Source of the DNA: Hungatella sp.
Lineage (GTDB): Bacteria; Bacillota; Clostridia; Lachnospirales; Lachnospiraceae
Assembly (NCBI GenBank): GCA_022795805.1
Contig: JAAWHK010000007.1
Coordinates: 1 to 50,964 of the forward strand
Direction: 5' to 3'
DNA: 50,964 nt
In this document: piece after piece, positions 2,169-50,857 of the stretch
How the letters are laid out: each line of letters starts with the position of its first letter
Numbering within the stretch: position 1 is the first letter of the stretch
Translations under genes and position numbers: made by a program
The notes under the pieces: generated by a model
What the model saw: the letters and a program-made list of their open reading frames with translations, nothing else
Database searches by the model: none
Told to the model about the DNA's origin: nothing

Positions 2169-4310
2169 CTATCCTTTCATTGTCAGGGCAATCCGCTTCT
2201 TGGCCAGGTCCACGCTCAGCACCTTCACTTCCACGATATCCCCCACGCTGACCACTTCCATGGGATGCTTGATGTACCGGTCCGTCATCTGGGAAATATG
2301 TACCAGCCCGTCCTGGTGCACCCCGATATCCACAAACGCCCCGAAGTCGATTACATTGCGCACCGTGCCTTTCAGCACCATGCCCGGGGTCAAATCCTTC
2401 ATCTCCAGCACGTCCGTCCGAAGAATGGGCTTTGGCATCTCATCTCTTGGGTCCCTGGCCGGCTTCTCCAGCTCCTTCACAATATCTTTCAGGGTCATCT
2501 CCCCGATGTTCAGCTCCCCTGCCAGCTTCCCGTAGTCCCCAATCTTCTTTCCGATTCCCTTAAGGCCGCCGGCCCCAATCTCCTCCGGCTCATACCCCAG
2601 CCGTTTCAGCAGAGTCTGGGCCGCCTCATAGCTCTCCGGGTGAACGCTGGTGCCGTCCAGAGGGTTTTTGCCCCCCTGAATCCTCATGAATCCCGCGCAC
2701 TGCTCATAAGCTTTGGGGCCAAGCTTGGCCACCTTGAGAAGCTGGTTCCTGCTCTGAAACGCCCCGTGCTCCTCCCGGTAAGCCACGATGTTCTTTGCCA
2801 GCGCCTTGCTGATGCCGGAAACGTACTCAAGAAGCGGCGCGGAAGCCGTATTCACATCCACGCCCACCTTATTGACACAGTCCTCCACAACCCCTGAAAG
2901 GGCCTCCCCCAGATGCTTCTGGTTCATGTCGTGCTGGTACTGGCCCACGCCGATGGACTTGGGGTCAATCTTCACCAGCTCTGCCAGGGGGTCCTGAAGA
3001 CGCCTGGCAATGGACGCCGCGCTCCTCTGGCCCACGTCAAAACCCGGAAATTCCTCCGTGGCCAGTTTGCTGGCGGAATACACGGAAGCCCCCGCCTCAT
3101 TGACAATCACATACTGCACCGGCTCCGGTATCTCCTTTAAAAGCTCCACGATAACCTGCTCCGACTCCCTGGAAGCCGTCCCGTTTCCGACGGAAATCAG
3201 GGAAATGTGGTAGGTCTTAATCAGTTTTTTCAGCACTGCCTTGGCCTCCGCCACCTTGTTCTGGGGAGCCGTGGGGTAAATCACCACCGTGTCCAGCACT
3301 TTTCCCGTCTCATCCACCACAGCCAGCTTGCACCCGGTACGAAAAGCCGGGTCCCAGCCCAGCACCACCTTCCCCGTGATTGGCGGCTGCATGAGAAGCT
3401 GTTCCAGATTCTTCCCGAACACCCTGATAGCCCCGTCCTCCGCCGTCTCCGTCAGCTGACTGCGAATCTCCCGCTCAATGGCAGGGGCGATAAGGCGCTT
3501 ATAGCTGTCCTGAACCACCTGCTTCAGCACCGGGGCTGTGTGGGGATTATTCCTTGTGATAACCTGCTTCTCCAGATAGCGGATAATGTCCTCCTCCGGA
3601 GCCGCCACCTTTACAGACAGAATCTTTTCCTTCTCTCCCCGATTCAGGGCCAGAACCCTGTGGCCCGCCGCCTTCCGGATAGTCTCTTCATAATTATAGT
3701 ACATCTCATAAACCGACTCTGTCTTCTCATCCTTTGCCGCAGACTGGATGCTCCCCTGCTTCAGGGTAAGATTGCGGATGTAGGTCCGGTATTTGGCCTC
3801 ATCGGAAATCCGCTCCGCCAGAATATCCCCGGCTCCGGCTATGGCGTCCTGAACGGAAGCCACGCCTTTTTCCTCCGATATATAGGCCCGGGCCGCTTCT
3901 TCCAAGGGCTCCTTCATCATCTGCAGGGCTATGGCGTCCGCCAGAGGCCCCAGCCCCTTCTCCTGGGCGATGGTCGCCCTGGTCCTTCTCTTGGGACGGT
4001 ATGGGCGGTACAAATCCTCCACCGCCACCAGCGTGGCGGCGTTCTGAATCTGCCGCTCCAGCTCCGGCGTCAGCTTCTCCTGCTCCCGGATGGAGGAGAG
4101 CACCTGCTCTTTCCGCTCCTCCAGGTTCCGCAGATACCGAAGCCTCTCATCCAGGCTTCTTAACACCTCGTCATTTAACGCGCCTGTGGCTTCCTTGCGG
4201 TAGCGGGCAATAAACGGGATGGTGTTTCCCTCATCAATCAGTTTCACCGCCGCCTCTACCTGGCCGCGGCCAATATTCAGTTCTTCCTGTAATGCCTTGA
4301 TAATATCCAT
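2169..4310 (-). CDS. tex: Tex-family S1 RNA-binding protein
   Basis: Tex is a cytoplasmic nucleic-acid-binding protein related to eukaryotic Spt6. The 713 residues show the family order: an N-terminal helical region with IPFIARYRKE near residues 31-40, a YqgF-like RNase H fold in the middle, a helix-hairpin-helix pair around residues 490-560, and a C-terminal S1 domain (residues about 640-710) containing GTVRNVIDFGAFVDIG. An AAGGGGA ribosome binding site precedes the ATG. The gene heads a run that continues through the YcxB-like protein, tsaE, tsaB and rimI. It is full length and has no anomalies. Confidence 0.95.
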   Translation of the reverse strand: MDIIKALQEELNIGRGQVEAAVKLIDEGNTIPFIARYRKEATGALNDEVLRSLDERLRYLRNLEERKEQVLSSIREQEKLTPELERQIQNAATLVAVEDLYRPYRPKRRTRATIAQEKGLGPLADAIALQMMKEPLEEAARAYISEEKGVASVQDAIAGAGDILAERISDEAKYRTYIRNLTLKQGSIQSAAKDEKTESVYEMYYNYEETIRKAAGHRVLALNRGEKEKILSVKVAAPEEDIIRYLEKQVITRNNPHTAPVLKQVVQDSYKRLIAPAIEREIRSQLTETAEDGAIRVFGKNLEQLLMQPPITGKVVLGWDPAFRTGCKLAVVDETGKVLDTVVIYPTAPQNKVAEAKAVLKKLIKTYHISLISVGNGTASRESEQVIVELLKEIPEPVQYVIVNEAGASVYSASKLATEEFPGFDVGQRSAASIARRLQDPLAELVKIDPKSIGVGQYQHDMNQKHLGEALSGVVEDCVNKVGVDVNTASAPLLEYVSGISKALAKNIVAYREEHGAFQSRNQLLKVAKLGPKAYEQCAGFMRIQGGKNPLDGTSVHPESYEAAQTLLKRLGYEPEEIGAGGLKGIGKKIGDYGKLAGELNIGEMTLKDIVKELEKPARDPRDEMPKPILRTDVLEMKDLTPGMVLKGTVRNVIDFGAFVDIGVHQDGLVHISQMTDRYIKHPMEVVSVGDIVEVKVLSVDLAKKRIALTMKG

Positions 4311-4336
4311 ATCGCTGTCTTTCCCCTTGCTATTTG

Positions 4337-4588
4337 TTATCCTTTAAGTCCTCTGGCCTGCCTGTCCATATCTTCAATCACAATATCATAAATCTCACCT
4401 AATGTAGAACAGTACTCCAGAACCTTCCACGGCTCATTGGTGTGAAAATGTATCTTTATCAGCTCATCATCCCCAACAGCCAAAAGGCAGTCGCCTTTCA
4501 GGTTCCGCGCAAAATAATCGCTGATTACATCCTCGTCCAGGTCTTCCCCCTCTATCAGCAGTTGGGTATCATACTTAAATTCCAGCAT
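4337..4588 (-). CDS. stand-alone FakA C-terminal-like (DAK phosphatase-like) domain protein
   Basis: A protein of about 83 residues. The start is the ATG at 4588, which follows AAGGAG with eight bases of spacing; the frame stays open further upstream without a ribosome binding site. The sequence resembles the C-terminal part of the fatty-acid kinase subunit FakA (YloV): FKYDTQLLIEG corresponds to the YCTEFL region, GDCLLAVGDDELIKIHFHTN to GDSLVVVGDDDLIKVHVHTN, and the end to the GEL-x-x-I-x-I-E-N-M segment. The DAK2 kinase domain is absent, so it cannot be a kinase by itself. It lies 26 bases upstream of tex on the same strand. Its function is unknown; a ligand-binding or regulatory fragment is possible. 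Confidence 0.7.
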   Translation of the reverse strand: MLEFKYDTQLLIEGEDLDEDVISDYFARNLKGDCLLAVGDDELIKIHFHTNEPWKVLEYCSTLGEIYDIVIEDMDRQARGLKG

Positions 4589-4658
4589 CGCGTATTCTCC
4601 TTCTCTTCCGACCAGACGGCCGGCTCTCCCCATTATATAGCGAATCTCTGCCTACGTC

Positions 4659-4687
4659 TAGACAGTATTTTATTTTCGTGATACAAT
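4659..4687 (+). promoter_or_regulatory. sigma-A promoter for the DUF4190 gene
   Basis: TAGACA and TACAAT are separated by 17 bases, and a TG dinucleotide sits one base before the -10 box (extended -10). It faces the gene at 4825, giving a leader of about 130 bases. By position only; start sites were not mapped. Confidence 0.6.
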
Positions 4688-4824
4688 TAGGATTACCGCA
4701 AAAGTATGCCGTCCAACCGGCGGCGTAAGTTCAGGTACGCCAAATGCGCCCCTTGTATTCTCCGGCGCCGCCTGCTGCCAGGCGCATGAAGGTTTGCCGC
4801 AGAAAAAAGAAAGAAGGAAATCAT

Positions 4825-5478
4825 ATGGACGAATACCGCAATCAAAACTCTGATGAACAAAACGGCTCTGACCGGCCACATCCATCTGAGTCCCCATATA
4901 GCTCCGGCTCCCCCATGGGAAACCAGCCCGGACAGGCCCCTAACCAGCCGCCATACGGACAGCAGCCGTGGCAGAATGCTTCCCAGAATGACCAGCAGTA
5001 CTGGCAGAACGGCCCGCAGAATAATCAGCAGTACTGGCAGAGCAATTCCCCCAACGGACAGCAGCCATGGCAGAACGGTCCCCAGAACAATCAATCCTAC
5101 TGGCAGAATGATTCCCAGAACAACCAGCCGTACTGGCAGAACAATTCTCCCAATAACCAGCCGTACTGGCAGAACGGACAGCCTCCCAAAAGGCGCAACA
5201 ACCTGGCTCTGGCGTCCATGATTGTGGGCATTTTTGCCCTTATCACCTGCTGCGTTCCTTTTATCCAGTTCCCTCTGGCCGTTACCGCGATTGTGCTCGT
5301 GATTCTCTCAAAGAAAAAACAGCCTTTAAGCGGCTTTGCCATTGCCGGACTGGTCATGGGCATTCTGGCCATCCTTTTGAGCATCGTGATGCTGCTCTAT
5401 TGGGGAGCTTACCTGCAGTTGATGAACGACCCGGAGTTTTCCAAAATCCTTAATGAAATGATGGAGATGTATCAGTAA
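4825..5478 (+). CDS. DUF4190 membrane protein with Q/N/W-rich tandem repeats
   Basis: A 217-residue protein. The ATG at 4825 is chosen because AGAAGGAAA lies just before it; longer in-frame starts have none. Residues 1-45 are polar and Pro/Gly/Ser-rich. Residues about 45-120 hold about six copies of an 11-residue unit of the form x-Y/P-W-Q-N-x-x-x-N-N-Q. A basic KRR patch precedes two transmembrane helices (about residues 128-155 and 165-195) that match DUF4190, with the GxxxGI and AIAGLVMG motifs of that family. The topology suggests a low-complexity, prion-like tail ahead of a small membrane anchor. No enzyme motif is present. Copies of DUF4190 proteins with disordered Q/N/P tails are common in Clostridia; their role is unknown. 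Confidence 0.8.
   Translation: MDEYRNQNSDEQNGSDRPHPSESPYSSGSPMGNQPGQAPNQPPYGQQPWQNASQNDQQYWQNGPQNNQQYWQSNSPNGQQPWQNGPQNNQSYWQNDSQNNQPYWQNNSPNNQPYWQNGQPPKRRNNLALASMIVGIFALITCCVPFIQFPLAVTAIVLVILSKKKQPLSGFAIAGLVMGILAILLSIVMLLYWGAYLQLMNDPEFSKILNEMMEMYQ
4960..5175 (+). repeat. 33-bp in-gene tandem repeat array
   Basis: About six imperfect copies of a 33-base unit encode the 11-residue unit built around YWQN and NNQ. Copies differ mostly at the first and middle codons, so the reading frame is preserved throughout. The array is coding, has no spacers, and could change copy number by slippage in multiples of 33 bases. Confidence 0.85.
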
Positions 5479-8046: not shown

Positions 8047-9375
8047 TTACAAATCATATTTCATCTCCAGTATATCAAGCTTATCGGATTCCTCATTAAT
8101 TTCCTGTGAAATTGTGTCTATCTCTATAGACTCAATCAGTCCGGATATTTTATCAACAATATTTTTCAACGTATCTTTCCCATTTTCACCAATTTTGTAT
8201 GCCAAAATTTTTTGAGGTGAAATTCTAAGCTGCTTTCTGATAATGGTTTCTTCGTTTTTGTTGGCCCCAATGTAATTTTCTACAGACGCAGACTGTATCA
8301 GCAGATTCGCAGAAGAAAGAATATATGGGCTATGAGTAGTTACTAAAAATCTACTGTTGCTGGAATTCATTGTCAGGGCAATCAACTCAACAATATTCCT
8401 CTGTGCTGCCGGATATAGATGCGCCTCCGGTTCCTCTAAAACAATATAGCTTTTTTTGTTCTCAAGAATAGCGACAAACAGCAGCAACAGTATCCATAAG
8501 GATTCCTGCTGGCCAGAAGAACCATAAATTAATTTAACCCAATGAGTATCATCAAAATATAATTTTTCTCCATCCGTATCATTGACATACTCTGCCTTTA
8601 ATATTTTTTTAATCAGTTCTTTTGCAATATTTGTATCCGCATTTTTTATCTGCCCCTGCACAGTTTTTAAATAATCATTTACAACATTATCCAGCTTACT
8701 GCCAAAGCGCGCCCGTGTTAACCGTATTTTCTCAATAAATTCTTTCATTGGCAAATCCAATATTGAAATATCAATTACATCTAATTGGTCTGATAATACG
8801 GATAACAAACTTCTTCCGGCCGGGATATATATGATATCTTCATCCGACTCAAAAATTTTATTGGCCAGTTCTGTGAAATGCACTTTTATTTCACTTTTCA
8901 GGCGAAGTTTATTGTTAAAATTAGCAACAAAATCCGCACTGGATTGCAGCTGATTTTCCCTGTATATCCTATGAGCATCCAGGAGAGACGCTCCAATCTC
9001 TTTTTCTAATCTATCCGAAAACTTAAAGAAAGCATACCCCTCTCTTAAACTAAGAGCTACCTCTTTTCCGCTCTTATACGAATAAATAATTTTAAATGAA
9101 GGCATATGTTTCGTTGTCCCAAAACATCCCATAAAATTTTTACGAATATACTTCAGAAAATTAATATACAGCTCATTTGGATGTGTCTGTAAAAAAGTTA
9201 CATCCTGTAAAATAAAATCAACATAATAATCACGGATTTTTTTGCAAAAAAACAAAACTTTTCCAATTGTACTTTTCCCAGATGCCTGGGGGCCAATTAT
9301 TATATTAATATTTTTATCTGCATCAATTTTAAGATTATTTATCGGTCCAAAATTTCTTATTTCTAAAAAACTCAT
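8047..9375 (-). CDS. ABC-type AAA ATPase (AAA_15/AAA_21-like, OLD-related)
   Basis: A 442-residue cytoplasmic ATPase starting at the ATG at 9375, which follows a purine-rich GGAGGAGGCGGAGG stretch. Residues 1-20 form the family's N-terminal strand pattern (FLEIRNFGPI). Walker A is GPQASGKST at residues 28-36, the ABC signature region is SGQQES near residue 300, Walker B is IVLEEPEAHLYP, and the switch His lies in TTHSPYIL. The long middle insertion is SMC/RecF-like. The C-terminal tail of about 60 residues has no visible TOPRIM motif, so it differs from complete OLD or GajA nucleases. Such ATPases power many phage-defence systems together with a separate effector, here probably the 142-residue gene downstream. 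Confidence 0.82.
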   Translation of the reverse strand: MSFLEIRNFGPINNLKIDADKNINIIIGPQASGKSTIGKVLFFCKKIRDYYVDFILQDVTFLQTHPNELYINFLKYIRKNFMGCFGTTKHMPSFKIIYSYKSGKEVALSLREGYAFFKFSDRLEKEIGASLLDAHRIYRENQLQSSADFVANFNNKLRLKSEIKVHFTELANKIFESDEDIIYIPAGRSLLSVLSDQLDVIDISILDLPMKEFIEKIRLTRARFGSKLDNVVNDYLKTVQGQIKNADTNIAKELIKKILKAEYVNDTDGEKLYFDDTHWVKLIYGSSGQQESLWILLLLFVAILENKKSYIVLEEPEAHLYPAAQRNIVELIALTMNSSNSRFLVTTHSPYILSSANLLIQSASVENYIGANKNEETIIRKQLRISPQKILAYKIGENGKDTLKNIVDKISGLIESIEIDTISQEINEESDKLDILEMKYDL

Positions 9376-9460
9376 ATACCTCCGCCTCCTCCAAGCAGTC
9401 AGGATTAATACATTTATCATATCATGGGGGCCGGCTTTTTACAAGTTCCCTGCTCTCCCT

Positions 9461-19586: not shown

Positions 19587-20090
19587 TCAAAAGCTCCGGA
19601 TCTGATCCTCCGTATCGTCTCCGGTGTTGTCGATCCGCCTGATTACCACATAGTATCCGGCCGTGTCACTGATCTTTACATACACCCGCTCCCCCACTCT
19701 GCGCCTGAAAATGGCTTTTCCCAGAGGCGATTCCGTGCTGATCATCCCTTTGAGGGAACTGCCCCTGATGGACGTCACCAGACGATAGGTCTCAACCTCG
19801 TCATCATCCTCCATGTAGAGTTCCACCGTGTTATTGATACCCACCTCGTCCTCCCGGGACTCGTCCGACACGATCTGGGCATTTTTCAGCATCCTCTCCA
19901 GATACCGGATCCGGCTCTCGTTCTGGTTCTTGTCCTTCTTTGCCGCATAGTACTCAAAATTCTCGCTCAGATCCCCCTGGGCTCTGGCCTCCTTCACCGC
20001 CTCGATAGCCACCTTTCGCACCACCAGCTTCCGGTGTTCGATCTCCTTTTTGATCTTTTCCACATCACTTCTTGTCAGCTTTTCGCCCAC
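19587..20090 (-). CDS. greA: transcription elongation factor GreA
   Basis: GreA inserts its coiled-coil tip into the secondary channel of RNA polymerase to cleave backtracked RNA. The 167 residues have the N-terminal coiled coil with the tip motif GDLSEN (about 39-44, acidic Asp and Glu) and a C-terminal FKBP-like domain with ESPLGKAI. The start is the GTG at 20090, backed by AAAGGAGG eight bases upstream, all of it inside the end of the GTPase-NYN gene. The 26-base overlap with that gene means translational coupling. The tip has Phe where many GreA proteins have Ala (SENFEY). Confidence 0.92.
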   Translation of the reverse strand: MGEKLTRSDVEKIKKEIEHRKLVVRKVAIEAVKEARAQGDLSENFEYYAAKKDKNQNESRIRYLERMLKNAQIVSDESREDEVGINNTVELYMEDDDEVETYRLVTSIRGSSLKGMISTESPLGKAIFRRRVGERVYVKISDTAGYYVVIRRIDNTGDDTEDQIRSF

Positions 20091-22797
20091 GGCCCGCTCC
20101 TCCTTTCACCCGTTTATCCTCTTCCTTCCCCAGCCTTATATCCTCCAGATATTCCGCCACATCCTCTTTTGCATGGCTTAAAAGATAATTCTTTCCTCTC
20201 CCCGCCCCCTGGCGCAGAGGTTCCAGATGCTCTGTCTCGATCTGATGTTCCGCATACAGAATATCCTCCCTCAGATCCTGTGCCGACAGAAGGCGGCAGC
20301 CCTCTCCCCGGATGATCAGCTGTTCCAGCCCGTCTGAGGTAGCCACGCTTACCTGATGGTCTTTCCCCATCCTGTGAGCCAGCTTTTCGATGTACTGGTC
20401 CGCAGTCTCCGCTTCCTTTGTGTATACCACATGGATGTTATTATATTTTATGGCCTGTCCGATACCGCCTTCCACCTTGTAGGCGTCAAACACCAGAATC
20501 AGGGTGCATTTTCGGTACCCCTGATAATTGCACAGAATATCCATAAGCTTGTGCCTGGCCCCGTCTATGGTGGCCTGCGCCAGATCCCGCAGCTCCTCCC
20601 ACGCAAAAATAATATTGTAGCCGTCTACCAGAAGATATTCCTCTTTTGGCTTATCTGCTTTGGAACTCCTTACAGGAGGCCTCTCCTCAAAGCTGACTCT
20701 CTTTGGCCCCTGCTGCCGGTATTTTTCCCGTTTACCGGTTCCGTAAGTCCGGATAAATATCGCCTCCAGTTCCTCATCGTCCACATGAAAACTGCCAGTC
20801 CCCGGATCGGCCGCCGTCCGGGACTCCTGTGTCCTCCCGGACTCCCTGTCCCTGCGCTCCTTCAGCTCTATGGGGCTCTCTACATGCATGTATTCCTTCA
20901 CCTGATACCAGGGCACATTAAATCCTGCTCCGTGGGCACAGAACACGGACCCTGACGGATTGTCCCCGTCCGCCTCCGGATCGTACCCCGAAGCCGCGGC
21001 CACGGCCTCCTCATTGCGGCAGGGCTCATACCCGGCCGGTCTTAAGGACAGCTGTCCCCGTCCTCTGGTGTAGGATATCACCTCCATCTGGTAATCCCTC
21101 ATGGCCGCCACCGGTGCGTTTCCGCAGAAAACGGTTCTGTCTCCCTCCTGCTTCGGAGGCTCAAACCGCCCCTGCATCCTGTCAATATCCGACATAGCCC
21201 GCCCTGTGTACTCTGACGGCACCTCCAGTCTGAACTCGTAATACGGCTCTAAAAGCCTGCATCCCCCTTCCATCAGTCCCTGACGGACCGCCCGGTAAGT
21301 GGCCTGCCTGAAATCGCCGCCCTCCGTGTGCTTCAAATGAGCACGCCCCGCAATCAGTGTAATCTTCATATCTGTCAGCTGGGCGCCTGTGAGCACGCCT
21401 CTGTGGCGCTTTTCCTCCAGATGAGTCAGGATAAGCCTCTGCCAGTTCCCGTCCAGAACATCCTGGCTGCACCTGGTATCAAACACGAGTCCACTGCCCC
21501 TCTCCCCTGGCTCCATGAGAAGATGGACCTCCGCATAGTGGCGCAGAGGTTCAAAATGTCCCACTCCCTCCGCGGTCTTCGCAATGGTCTCCCTGTAAAC
21601 GATGCTTCCTGTTCCAAACTCCACATCCACCCCAAACCGCTGCTTTATAAGACTCTTCAGAATCTCTGTCTGCACCTGTCCCATGACCTGAACCTGTATC
21701 TCGCCCAGAGCCTCATTCCAGCTGATATGGAGTTCCGGTTCTTCCTCCTCCAGAATCTGCAGTTTCAGGAGCATCCCATGAACATCACAGTCCTGCGGAA
21801 GAATTACCTGGTACGTCAGCACCGGAGCCAGAAAAGGCGTTCTCAGACGGCTCTCCACGCCCAGCGCCTGGCCGGGAAAAGTCCGCGACGGCCCCGCGAC
21901 GGCACACACGGTTCCCGACGGCGCCTCCGGGACCGCCTCATATCTGGCTCCGGAATAGATCCGGATCTGATTCACCTTTTCACCCGGACCGCCGTCCTGT
22001 AAAGCCAGCTCCTCCTTCACCTTCAGACTTCCCCCGGTTATCTTCAGATGGGTCAGGCGGCTGCCCTGCTCATCCCTGGATATCTTATAGACCCTGGCGG
22101 CAAATTCCTCCCCGTACACAGGCGCCTTTCCGTAAACAGCCAGGCCTTCAAGAAACGCATCTATCCCTTCCGCCCTCAGCGCCGACCCGAAATAGCAGGG
22201 AAATACCTTTCTCTCCCGGATCAGACGGGATATCTCTTCATCTGTCACGCTCCCCGTATCCAGATACGATTCCAGCACCTCTTCATCGCACACGGCAAGG
22301 TTCTCATCCCTTTCCTCCCTGCTGCCGCCAAAATCCACACAGTTCTCATGAAGCCGTTTCTTCAGTTCCCCCATGAGGAACTCCCTGTCCGTGCCCTTCT
22401 GATCCATCTTATTGATAAATAAAAACACAGGGACCCTGTAGCGCCGAAGAAGCCGCCACAAGGTTTCCGTGTGTCCCTGCACCCCGTCCGCCCCGCTGAC
22501 TACCAGCACGGCATAGTCCAGAACTTGCAGCGTTCGCTCCGTCTCCGGAGAAAAATCCACATGCCCCGGCGTGTCCAGAAGGGTTACCTCCTTCTCCCCC
22601 AGTCCAAACACTGCCTGCTTGGAGAAGATGGTGATGCCTCTCGTCCGCTCCAGCTCATAATTATCCAGAAACGCGTCCTGGTTATCTACCCGTCCCATTC
22701 TCCGGATGCGCCCCGTCTTAAATAGAATCACCTCCGACAGAGTGGTCTTCCCCGCATCCACATGGGCCAGTATCCCTATGACCAATTTTTCCCTCAT
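20065..22797 (-). CDS. TetM-like translational GTPase fused to Rae1/YacP NYN nuclease domain
   Basis: A 910-residue fusion. Residues 1-650 are a TetM/TetO-type GTPase: G1 AHVDAGKTT (11-19), G2 TRGIT (52-56), G3 DTPGH (75-79), G4 NKMD (129-132), G5 GSAL (204-207), then EF-G-like domains II to V. The tip loop that in TetM displaces tetracycline (SPVSTP before ADFR) is LKHTEGG before DFR (about 487-496), so drug protection is doubtful. A charged linker (about 650-715) leads to a NYN domain (about 718-850) with LLVDGYN, VFDAYK, TKEAETAD and VATSD, as in Bacillus Rae1, which cuts mRNA in the ribosomal A site. The start is uncertain: GTG 22827, ATG 22818 and ATG 22797 all lack a good ribosome binding site; 22797 matches the family start. 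It overlaps greA. Confidence 0.88.
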   Translation of the reverse strand: MREKLVIGILAHVDAGKTTLSEVILFKTGRIRRMGRVDNQDAFLDNYELERTRGITIFSKQAVFGLGEKEVTLLDTPGHVDFSPETERTLQVLDYAVLVVSGADGVQGHTETLWRLLRRYRVPVFLFINKMDQKGTDREFLMGELKKRLHENCVDFGGSREERDENLAVCDEEVLESYLDTGSVTDEEISRLIRERKVFPCYFGSALRAEGIDAFLEGLAVYGKAPVYGEEFAARVYKISRDEQGSRLTHLKITGGSLKVKEELALQDGGPGEKVNQIRIYSGARYEAVPEAPSGTVCAVAGPSRTFPGQALGVESRLRTPFLAPVLTYQVILPQDCDVHGMLLKLQILEEEEPELHISWNEALGEIQVQVMGQVQTEILKSLIKQRFGVDVEFGTGSIVYRETIAKTAEGVGHFEPLRHYAEVHLLMEPGERGSGLVFDTRCSQDVLDGNWQRLILTHLEEKRHRGVLTGAQLTDMKITLIAGRAHLKHTEGGDFRQATYRAVRQGLMEGGCRLLEPYYEFRLEVPSEYTGRAMSDIDRMQGRFEPPKQEGDRTVFCGNAPVAAMRDYQMEVISYTRGRGQLSLRPAGYEPCRNEEAVAAASGYDPEADGDNPSGSVFCAHGAGFNVPWYQVKEYMHVESPIELKERRDRESGRTQESRTAADPGTGSFHVDDEELEAIFIRTYGTGKREKYRQQGPKRVSFEERPPVRSSKADKPKEEYLLVDGYNIIFAWEELRDLAQATIDGARHKLMDILCNYQGYRKCTLILVFDAYKVEGGIGQAIKYNNIHVVYTKEAETADQYIEKLAHRMGKDHQVSVATSDGLEQLIIRGEGCRLLSAQDLREDILYAEHQIETEHLEPLRQGAGRGKNYLLSHAKEDVAEYLEDIRLGKEEDKRVKGGAGRGRKADKK

Positions 22798-22827
22798 GTC
22801 CCTGTTGCTGCCTTCCATCCGCTCCAC

Positions 22828-50235: not shown

Positions 50236-50321
50236 TGCCGCAGGCCGGAATCGAACCGGCACGGGAGATTAGTCCCGCAGGATTTTAAGTCCTGTGCGTC
50301 TGCCAGTTCCGCCACTGCGGC
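50236..50321 (-). tRNA. tRNA-Leu (TAA)
   Basis: A complete class II cloverleaf: acceptor GCCGCAG/CTGCGGC with discriminator A, anticodon loop CTTAAAA, a long variable arm and a GGTTCGATTCC T-arm. It decodes UUA and UUG. CCA is not encoded. Confidence 0.95.
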
Positions 50322-50360
50322 ATAATAAACTGTCATCACATCTGCCAAATATATGATAAA

Positions 50361-50433
50361 TGGGGCCTATAGGGCTCGAACCTATGACCCTCTGCTTGTA
50401 AGGCAGATGCTCTCCCAGCTGAGCTAAGACCCC
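50361..50433 (-). tRNA. tRNA-Val (TAC)
   Basis: Acceptor GGGGTCT/AGGCCCC with discriminator A, D-arm AGCTCAGCTGGGAGAGC, anticodon loop TTACAAG, and T-arm GGTTCGAGCCC. CCA is not encoded. Confidence 0.95.
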
Positions 50434-50455
50434 TTAAAAACTTATTTTAACATAA

Positions 50456-50529
50456 CGACCCGGATGGGATTCGAACCCACGACCTCCGCCGTGACAGGGC
50501 GGCGCTCTAACCAGCTGAGCCACCGGGCC
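50456..50529 (-). tRNA. tRNA-Asp (GTC)
   Basis: Acceptor GGCCCGG/CCGGGTC with discriminator G, D-arm GGCTCAGCTGGTTAGAGC, anticodon loop CTGTCAC, and T-arm GGTTCGAATCC. This tRNA is also charged by the AspRS2 of this window. Confidence 0.95.
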
Positions 50530-50561
50530 AAACAAATCTATCTTATATAATTATAAAACAA

Positions 50562-50635
50562 TGGACCTTCGGGGACTCGAACCCAGGACCGACCGGTTAT
50601 GAGCCGGTTGCTCTAACCAACTGAGCTAAAGGTCC
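50562..50635 (-). tRNA. tRNA with CAT anticodon (elongator Met or Ile2)
   Basis: Acceptor GGACCTT with discriminator A, anticodon loop CTCATAA. The body closely matches tRNAs annotated both as elongator Met and as Ile2 (lysidine). Sequence alone does not decide; the first base pair excludes initiator tRNA. Confidence 0.9.
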
Positions 50636-50664
50636 GAAATACACTTGGTAATTCCGTGTTTCAA

Positions 50665-50736
50665 TGACCCCAACGAGATTCGAACTCGTGTTACCGCCGT
50701 GAAAGGGCGATGTCTTAACCGCTTGACCATGGGGCC
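50665..50736 (-). tRNA. tRNA-Glu (TTC)
   Basis: Acceptor GGCCCCA/TGGGGTC with discriminator A, D-arm GGTCAAGCGGTTAAGAC, anticodon loop TTTCACG, and T-arm GAGTTCGAATCTC. In Clostridia a related tRNA(Gln) may also be charged through GatCAB. Confidence 0.94.
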
Positions 50737-50784
50737 CTCTTTCTTCTGCACCGCCGGCAACCTCTGCCTCTCTCTCGTGCCTAA

Positions 50785-50857
50785 CTCCCTGAGTTGGACT
50801 CGAACCAACGACACTGCGGTTAACAGCCGCATGCTCTACCGACTGAGCTATCAAGGA
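50785..50857 (-). tRNA. tRNA-Asn (GTT)
   Basis: Acceptor TCCTTGA/TCAGGGA with discriminator G, anticodon loop CTGTTAA, and T-arm GGTTCGAGTCC. It is the substrate of the AspRS2-GatCAB route and the likely ligand of the T-box at 47.0-47.4 kb. Confidence 0.94.

Follow-up and report, generated by a model that had tools for sequence, protein, structure and literature searches.

The window analysed here, a stretch of 50,964 nucleotides from Hungatella sp. (contig JAAWHK010000007.1, assembly GCA_022795805.1), carries on its minus strand an open reading frame (ORF; 20065..22827) for a protein of 920 amino acids (aa), in which a translational GTPase is followed by a linker and a NYN_YacP nuclease. Judged from its sequence, this is a real, conserved and previously noted fusion, for which a role in ribosome surveillance is more likely than one in resistance. 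The fusion itself is not new, having been in print since 2015: ten clostridial species were described with a "Tet" protein bearing a YacP-like NYN domain, and in the available text of that paper an RNase-based resistance was suggested (Atkinson, 2015; PMC4342817). By its domain order and bacterial group, the window gene is evidently one of these Tet-NYN proteins, a match made by description. Among the literature matches listed, no further description of a GTPase-NYN_YacP fusion was recognised besides PMC4342817. Whereas that paper concerned ten species and resistance, what the present sequences add is a GTPase clade apart from the Tet proteins (100/99), which has its own domain IV tip, fails the NCBI Tet cut-offs, is present in most of the family's genomes examined and replaces stand-alone Rae1.

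A translational GTPase joined to a Rae1-type nuclease

The coordinates that the first-pass annotation gave for the ORF were reproduced exactly, with the minus strand, a length of 920 aa and a GTG start, and the frame is complete. The EF-G/Tet-type GTPase body (domains G, II, III, IV and V) was delimited through Pfam, NCBIfam, AlphaFold and PDB comparison to residues 16-606 (21010..22782, on the minus strand, like every part of the protein described below). Along it, Pfam places GTP_EFTU (residues 16-229, 9.8e-49), EF-G_D2 (242-316, 0.0002, which is sub-threshold at 21.8 bits vs a cut-off of 27), EFG_III (335-405), EFG_IV (408-520) and EFG_C (524-606). The five G motifs and EF-G-like domains claimed beforehand are all there, the motifs being AHVDAGKTT (21-29), RGIT (63-66), DTPGH (85-89), NKMD (139-142) and GSAL (214-217). 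The protein therefore has what marks the EF-G-like superfamily, that is, G1-G5 with the catalytic DTPGH and domains II-V, domain II being recognised through the sub-cut-off Pfam match and the model. In comparison with the PDB, the GTPase part gave a near tie between TetO (1.1e-69) and EF-G (1.7e-69). The structure-comparison rows of Foldseek and VIA cover model residues up to 646, and the likeness of the NYN domain to 5mq8 and 5mq9 rests on sequence. The source genome also encodes, on contig C101, an EF-G-like paralogue (L036) with DTPGY in place of DTPGH, so that the catalytic histidine is missing there.

The NYN_YacP or Rae1-type nuclease domain occupies residues 732-898 (20134..20634). It scores 161.8 bits on PF05991, where the cut-off is 24.6 (1.8e-47, profile positions 1-165 of 166), and the motifs LLVDGYN, FDA, ETAD and VATSD are all found in it. 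At E <=1, its only PDB match is the YacP/Rae1 protein of Bacillus subtilis (5mq9, 5.7e-24; 5mq8, 7.8e-24). The identity first assigned to the protein, a GTPase with a Rae1-type NYN domain, is thus borne out by the Pfam domains, the PDB matches and the NYN motifs. Residues D735, D781, D810 and D832 align with D7, D53, D81 and D104 of B. subtilis YacP/Rae1 and are invariant in 35/35 fused proteins and 15/15 stand-alone homologues, the acidic metal residues being kept, as the earlier claim required. Rae1 is described as a translation-dependent mRNA endonuclease of the ribosomal A site (PMC6613710, and the literature as cited in PMC6613710, PMC10100781 and PMC11780869). One of its known substrates is S1025 (PMC11780869). 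Rae1 is small and stands alone, whereas the NYN of the window forms the C-terminal domain of a GTPase of 920 aa at another locus.

The two enzymes are separated by a variable, mostly low-confidence linker (residues 651-728, 20644..20877), with a mean top-residue frequency of 0.31 and a pLDDT below 50 at residues 664-688 and 695-725 of the AlphaFold model. Within it lies a conserved short helix motif (residues 684-695, 20743..20778; [DE][LI]xxI[FLM]-like), in which the columns of E686 and I690 are nearly invariant and one motif pattern was matched in 32 of 34 rows; a helix at 685-695 is predicted at low confidence.

Separation from Tet proteins and EF-G

The closest NCBIfam model to the window protein is NF012153 (tet_protect), with 423 bits against a cut-off of 775, and on NF033148 (TetM/W/O/S) it reached 267.9 bits against a cut-off of 1100, scores which support the initial suspicion that a tetracycline label would probably be wrong. 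As a control, a Tet-type protein of the same bacterial family (L085) passed both models with 863.8 and 1319.8 bits, and four fused and unfused relatives (L102, L110, L101 and L100) scored 378-408 and 262-288 bits, respectively. The canonical EF-G model TIGR00484 gave 288.1 bits vs a cut-off of 659.4. A GTPase tree of 55 rows splits at 100/99 into four Tet rows, one of which (L087) is only Tet-like and itself under the Tet cut-off, and the 35 fused plus 16 unfused rows. That protein, a Tet/EF-G relative of 641 aa in genome G335, has HTHPLDF as loop III, scores 453 bits vs the Tet cut-off of 775 and is apparently a third kind of GTPase.

The tip of domain IV, H424-R429 and K499-D505 in the window protein, also differs from that of the Tet proteins. 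Its loop I region (residues 420-433, EGVGHFEPLRHYAE, 21529..21570) is, in 34 fused sequences, the best-conserved stretch beyond the G domain, and loop III (residues 495-507, RAHLKHTEGGDFR, 21307..21345) lies at the position of the SPVSTP loop of TetO/TetM. The replacement of this loop, noticed at first sight of the sequence, was confirmed, since AHLKHTEGGDFR is found in the window protein at the position of YYSPVSTPADFR in TetO. Two tip motifs, H[FY]EP[LI] and KH[TS]xx[GDR]DF, are each present in 35/35 fused and 15/16 unfused rows and in 0/4 Tet rows. Behind domain V follows a C-terminal extension (residues 607-650, ...NPSGSVFCAHGAGFNVPWYQVKEYMH, 20878..21009) with S627 and G633 invariant in the 34 fused sequences; its S[VI]FC pattern occurs in 11/12 of the unfused tails compared and in 0/4 of the Tet or Tet-like tails compared. 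The window protein thus has neither the SPVSTP loop III nor the C-terminal helix of the Tet type, its extension being a different one. The argument from loop III is weak on its own because the S508A/P509A/V510A triple mutant of Tet(M) is reported to stay active (PMC4750697), and the loop sequence alone is compatible with ribosome protection. Taken together, the protein differs from TetM/TetO/TetW by an identity of ~30-33%, other domain IV loops and C-terminal extension, a separate clade and sub-cut-off scores, and from EF-G by its score under the TIGR00484 cut-off, tip loops unlike those of the EF-G-like rows seen, and its extra C-terminal parts.

Among three annotated relatives checked, the fused protein of Agathobacter rectalis and the unfused one of Ligilactobacillus salivarius are annotated as TetM/TetW/TetO/TetS, and the fused Monoglobus protein as "translation factor GTPase family protein". 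Since two public relatives bear resistance names, resistome counts could be inflated.

Distribution and replacement of stand-alone Rae1

The protein is present in most examined genomes of a major gut bacterial family. Three genome sets were used, with 150 genomes of the same family, 294 of the order and 199 of the phylum (G000 and G004 being shared with the order set). At 1e-60, the GTPase query matched 136/150 same-family genomes, two of them (G335 and G216) only via a 644 aa Tet-like gene, which leaves 134. Fused-length frames (848-1095 aa) were found in 122 of these carriers, unfused frames in six (G198, G270, G263, G326, G307 and G402) and short or split frames in six (G355, G409, G317, G214, G276 and G385); the search for the domain pair across Lachnospiraceae, proposed with the first reading of the sequence, thus returned frames of fused length in 122/150 genomes. 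At least six genomes (G320, G407, G310, G334, G296 and G339) carry, beside the fused gene, a separate Tet-like gene of 643-644 aa with 31-32% identity; the three of these that were read (L085, L086 and L096) all have SPVSTP, and L085 is the control scored above.

In the order set, NYN_YacP was found in 268/294 genomes and the GTPase family, at 1e-150, in 169/294, which by frame length divide into 137 fused, 31 unfused and G076, where the GTPase frame is cut at a contig end (it begins with base 3) and no NYN was found in the genome. Among the 137, G094 and G214 are broken and G108 is truncated at a contig end; the 31 comprise 26 full-length frames, four partial ones (G263, G211, G020 and G158) and the borderline G121 (505 bits). 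The NYN was located in all 137 fused genomes (60 fused or split, two broken in G108 and G094, seven more, and 68/68), and 135/137 are without any other complete NYN_YacP gene, the second matches in G017 and G044 being fragments. All 31 unfused-GTPase genomes keep the NYN in a frame of its own of 171-226 aa. In the phylum set, 12/12 fused genomes have no NYN other than the fused one, and the one high-scoring unfused genome, G588, has a stand-alone NYN; five more matches at 436-517 bits were left unclassed. Beyond the sets, the unfused GTPases of Neobacillus and Intestinibacter are accompanied by NYN_YacP, and that of Collinsella by a distant one (8e-26). A strict dependence of the GTPase on the NYN was considered and rejected, as it holds in the 294 genomes except G076 and fails in Bifidobacterium avesanii.

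Proposed function and alternative explanations

With moderate confidence, the sequences can be read as those of a housekeeping translation-surveillance factor, whose GTPase would bring a Rae1-type nuclease to paused or stalled ribosomes. The domains, the intact GTPase and NYN residues, the replacement of stand-alone Rae1, the poorly ordered linker and the distinct tip are evident from sequence or model; from them we infer ribosome binding, the order of the GTPase and nuclease steps and mRNA as the substrate. The protein would be a chromosomal factor of Lachnospirales and some other Clostridia, built around an EF-G-like GTPase whose lineage is not that of the Tet proteins. At an empty or blocked A site, this GTPase would bind the ribosome and place its conserved domain IV tip in the decoding centre. 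It would then be released by GTP hydrolysis, and the tethered NYN domain would cut the mRNA in or beside the A site, allowing clearance of the stalled ribosome and decay of the message. Held on a poorly ordered tether behind the EF-G-like body, the Rae1 domain would be concentrated at the ribosome.

More tentatively, mRNA surveillance in Lachnospirales may be united in one polypeptide, where a dedicated GTPase with its own decoding-centre tip would detect that the A site is empty or blocked and, on GTP hydrolysis, pass the site on to the tethered nuclease; in other Bacillota, the unfused GTPase and separate Rae1 would then be the same pathway divided between two proteins. Eukaryotic no-go decay directs a translational GTPase and an endonuclease to one stalled ribosome, and the one-polypeptide scheme, if true, would be its bacterial counterpart in logic. 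Should the surveillance reading hold, an unstudied branch of translational GTPases would be tied to Rae1, a route by which Rae1 reaches the A site would be suggested, and the unfused GTPase and Rae1 would be predicted to cooperate elsewhere in Bacillota.

Several observations weigh against a surveillance factor of this kind. The GTPase domain IV and Rae1, as the latter's action has been proposed in print, would both occupy the A site, which calls for sequential action or for cutting elsewhere on the mRNA; for this reason, the favoured scheme is that GTP hydrolysis comes first and the site is then handed over, or that the cut falls at the A-site edge. The structure model comes without inter-domain confidence, so that the placement of the NYN domain is not readable from it. 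Two genomes, G108 and G126, have a 177 aa stand-alone NYN in addition to the fused gene, and the association of the unfused GTPase with an NYN, calculated on the genomes that lack the fused gene (31/31 vs 100/125, Fisher p 0.0046), is uncorrected for ancestry. At the cut-offs used, neither part was found in at least nine of the order-set genomes that belong to the family, and the factor is therefore not essential everywhere. No NYN_YacP match was obtained in the genome of B. avesanii, which has the unfused GTPase; the GTPase can therefore persist without the nuclease. Finally, in a fused protein of G216 (L103, ORF 2674-5460) the GTPase is just 28% identical and both tip motifs are lost, with the linker motif and NYN kept.

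Some of these points fit a somewhat doubtful but possible alternative of two jobs in one chain, in which the GTPase has its own role in translation (for example, pause relief or back-translocation) and Rae1 is simply kept near ribosomes, hydrolysis and cutting being uncoupled. The occurrence of the unfused GTPase across Bacillota, and in B. avesanii without an NYN_YacP match, speaks for it, as do tip motifs that are identical with or without the nuclease and a linker that is long and poorly conserved; however, the fused form occurs in most same-family genomes examined and takes the place of stand-alone Rae1, and the linker contains a short conserved motif. There is little probability that the protein is a nuclease of rRNA/tRNA processing or ribosome turnover which the GTPase targets to ribosomes. 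NYN domains have been proposed for rRNA/tRNA maturation (cited in PMC4342817) and stand-alone copies adjoin rlmB and an RNase III-type gene, yet Rae1, the closest characterised relative, is reported as an A-site mRNA endonuclease.

Ribosome protection as a means of resistance to tetracycline or another A-site antibiotic, with an RNase step possibly added to it, is the hypothesis already in print (PMC4342817), and it can draw on tet_protect as the closest NCBIfam model, on TetO as the best PDB match, nearly tied with EF-G, and on the tolerance of Tet(M) to loop III changes (PMC4750697). It is nonetheless improbable here, as the window protein fails the Tet cut-offs that the same-family L085 passes, differs from Tet in loops I and III and in the C-terminal extension, is split from the four Tet or Tet-like rows of the tree, and is encoded in most same-family genomes, at least six of which have separate Tet-like genes alongside. 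After cut-offs, motifs, tree, distribution and co-occurrence, the tetracycline-resistance reading is thus not favoured by the sequences.

Origin and mobility

Thirteen unfused GTPases of diverse Bacillota group at 86/99. A further group, at 99/94, consists of those of L. salivarius (L102), Collinsella (L124) and B. avesanii (L125), whose identity to the window protein is 49-56%, and it clusters with a fused row at 97/76. This position suggests that these three GTPases were transferred and then lost the nuclease. In L. salivarius, the unfused GTPase (L102:5400-7917) is encoded on a plasmid of 204 kb, next to rpsN (S14) and a "putative metal homeostasis protein". The trees allow a single origin of the fusion as well as several: in the best tree the fused label changes three times, the well-supported branches force only one change, and the NYN tree is no clearer.

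A match was found in PHROGs between the GTPase and phrog_6880, "translation elongation factor" (3.8e-135), and two "Bacteriophage sp." contigs (MT835514 and MT835563) carry both parts close together. In MT835514 (L201), which has a fused-length gene, 7/8 neighbour ORFs scanned match cellular-type families (addAB-like, feoB, mraW-like, tRNA synthetase and others), and it is therefore probably bacterial DNA. Of 1056 plasmid records that matched, two reach a query coverage of at least 80%, both of them large replicons. A mobile or defence role was discarded; the one PADLOC result was a weak match of ThsB to the NYN part (0.00015).

Start codon, neighbouring genes and other features of the window

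The start codon of the fused ORF is uncertain, with GTG 22827, ATG 22818 and ATG 22797 as candidates; the stop of dapdh abuts the GTG, and ATG 22797 is the approximate start position of many homologues. At its other end, the ORF overlaps by 26 bases a greA-like gene (19587..20090, minus strand), whose GTG start is immediately preceded by AAAGGAGGA. A conserved operon with greA is not general, as 4/24 other fused loci (L041-L060 and L075-L078, some truncated at contig ends) have a greA match in the vicinity of the fusion.

Stand-alone NYN genes, where scanned, lie beside rlmB, an RNase III-type gene, cysS and a sigma-factor gene, as does rae1 of B. subtilis, which is co-transcribed with rlmB/yacO (PMC6613710). 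Four others (L061, L062, L063 and L067) have neighbour ORFs unlike cysS-mrnC-rlmB-rae1, as judged by their lengths. The fused gene of the window is flanked by dapdh and greA rather than by rlmB, and it is the sole NYN_YacP match of its source genome, which is 78% complete. The nearest named relative of the window protein in the tree is that of a Lachnospiraceae metagenome-assembled genome (L115, 95/95). Elsewhere in the window, an AAA_15/AAA_21 ATPase is encoded at 8047-9420, and six tRNA genes form a cluster at 50236-50857 on the minus strand.

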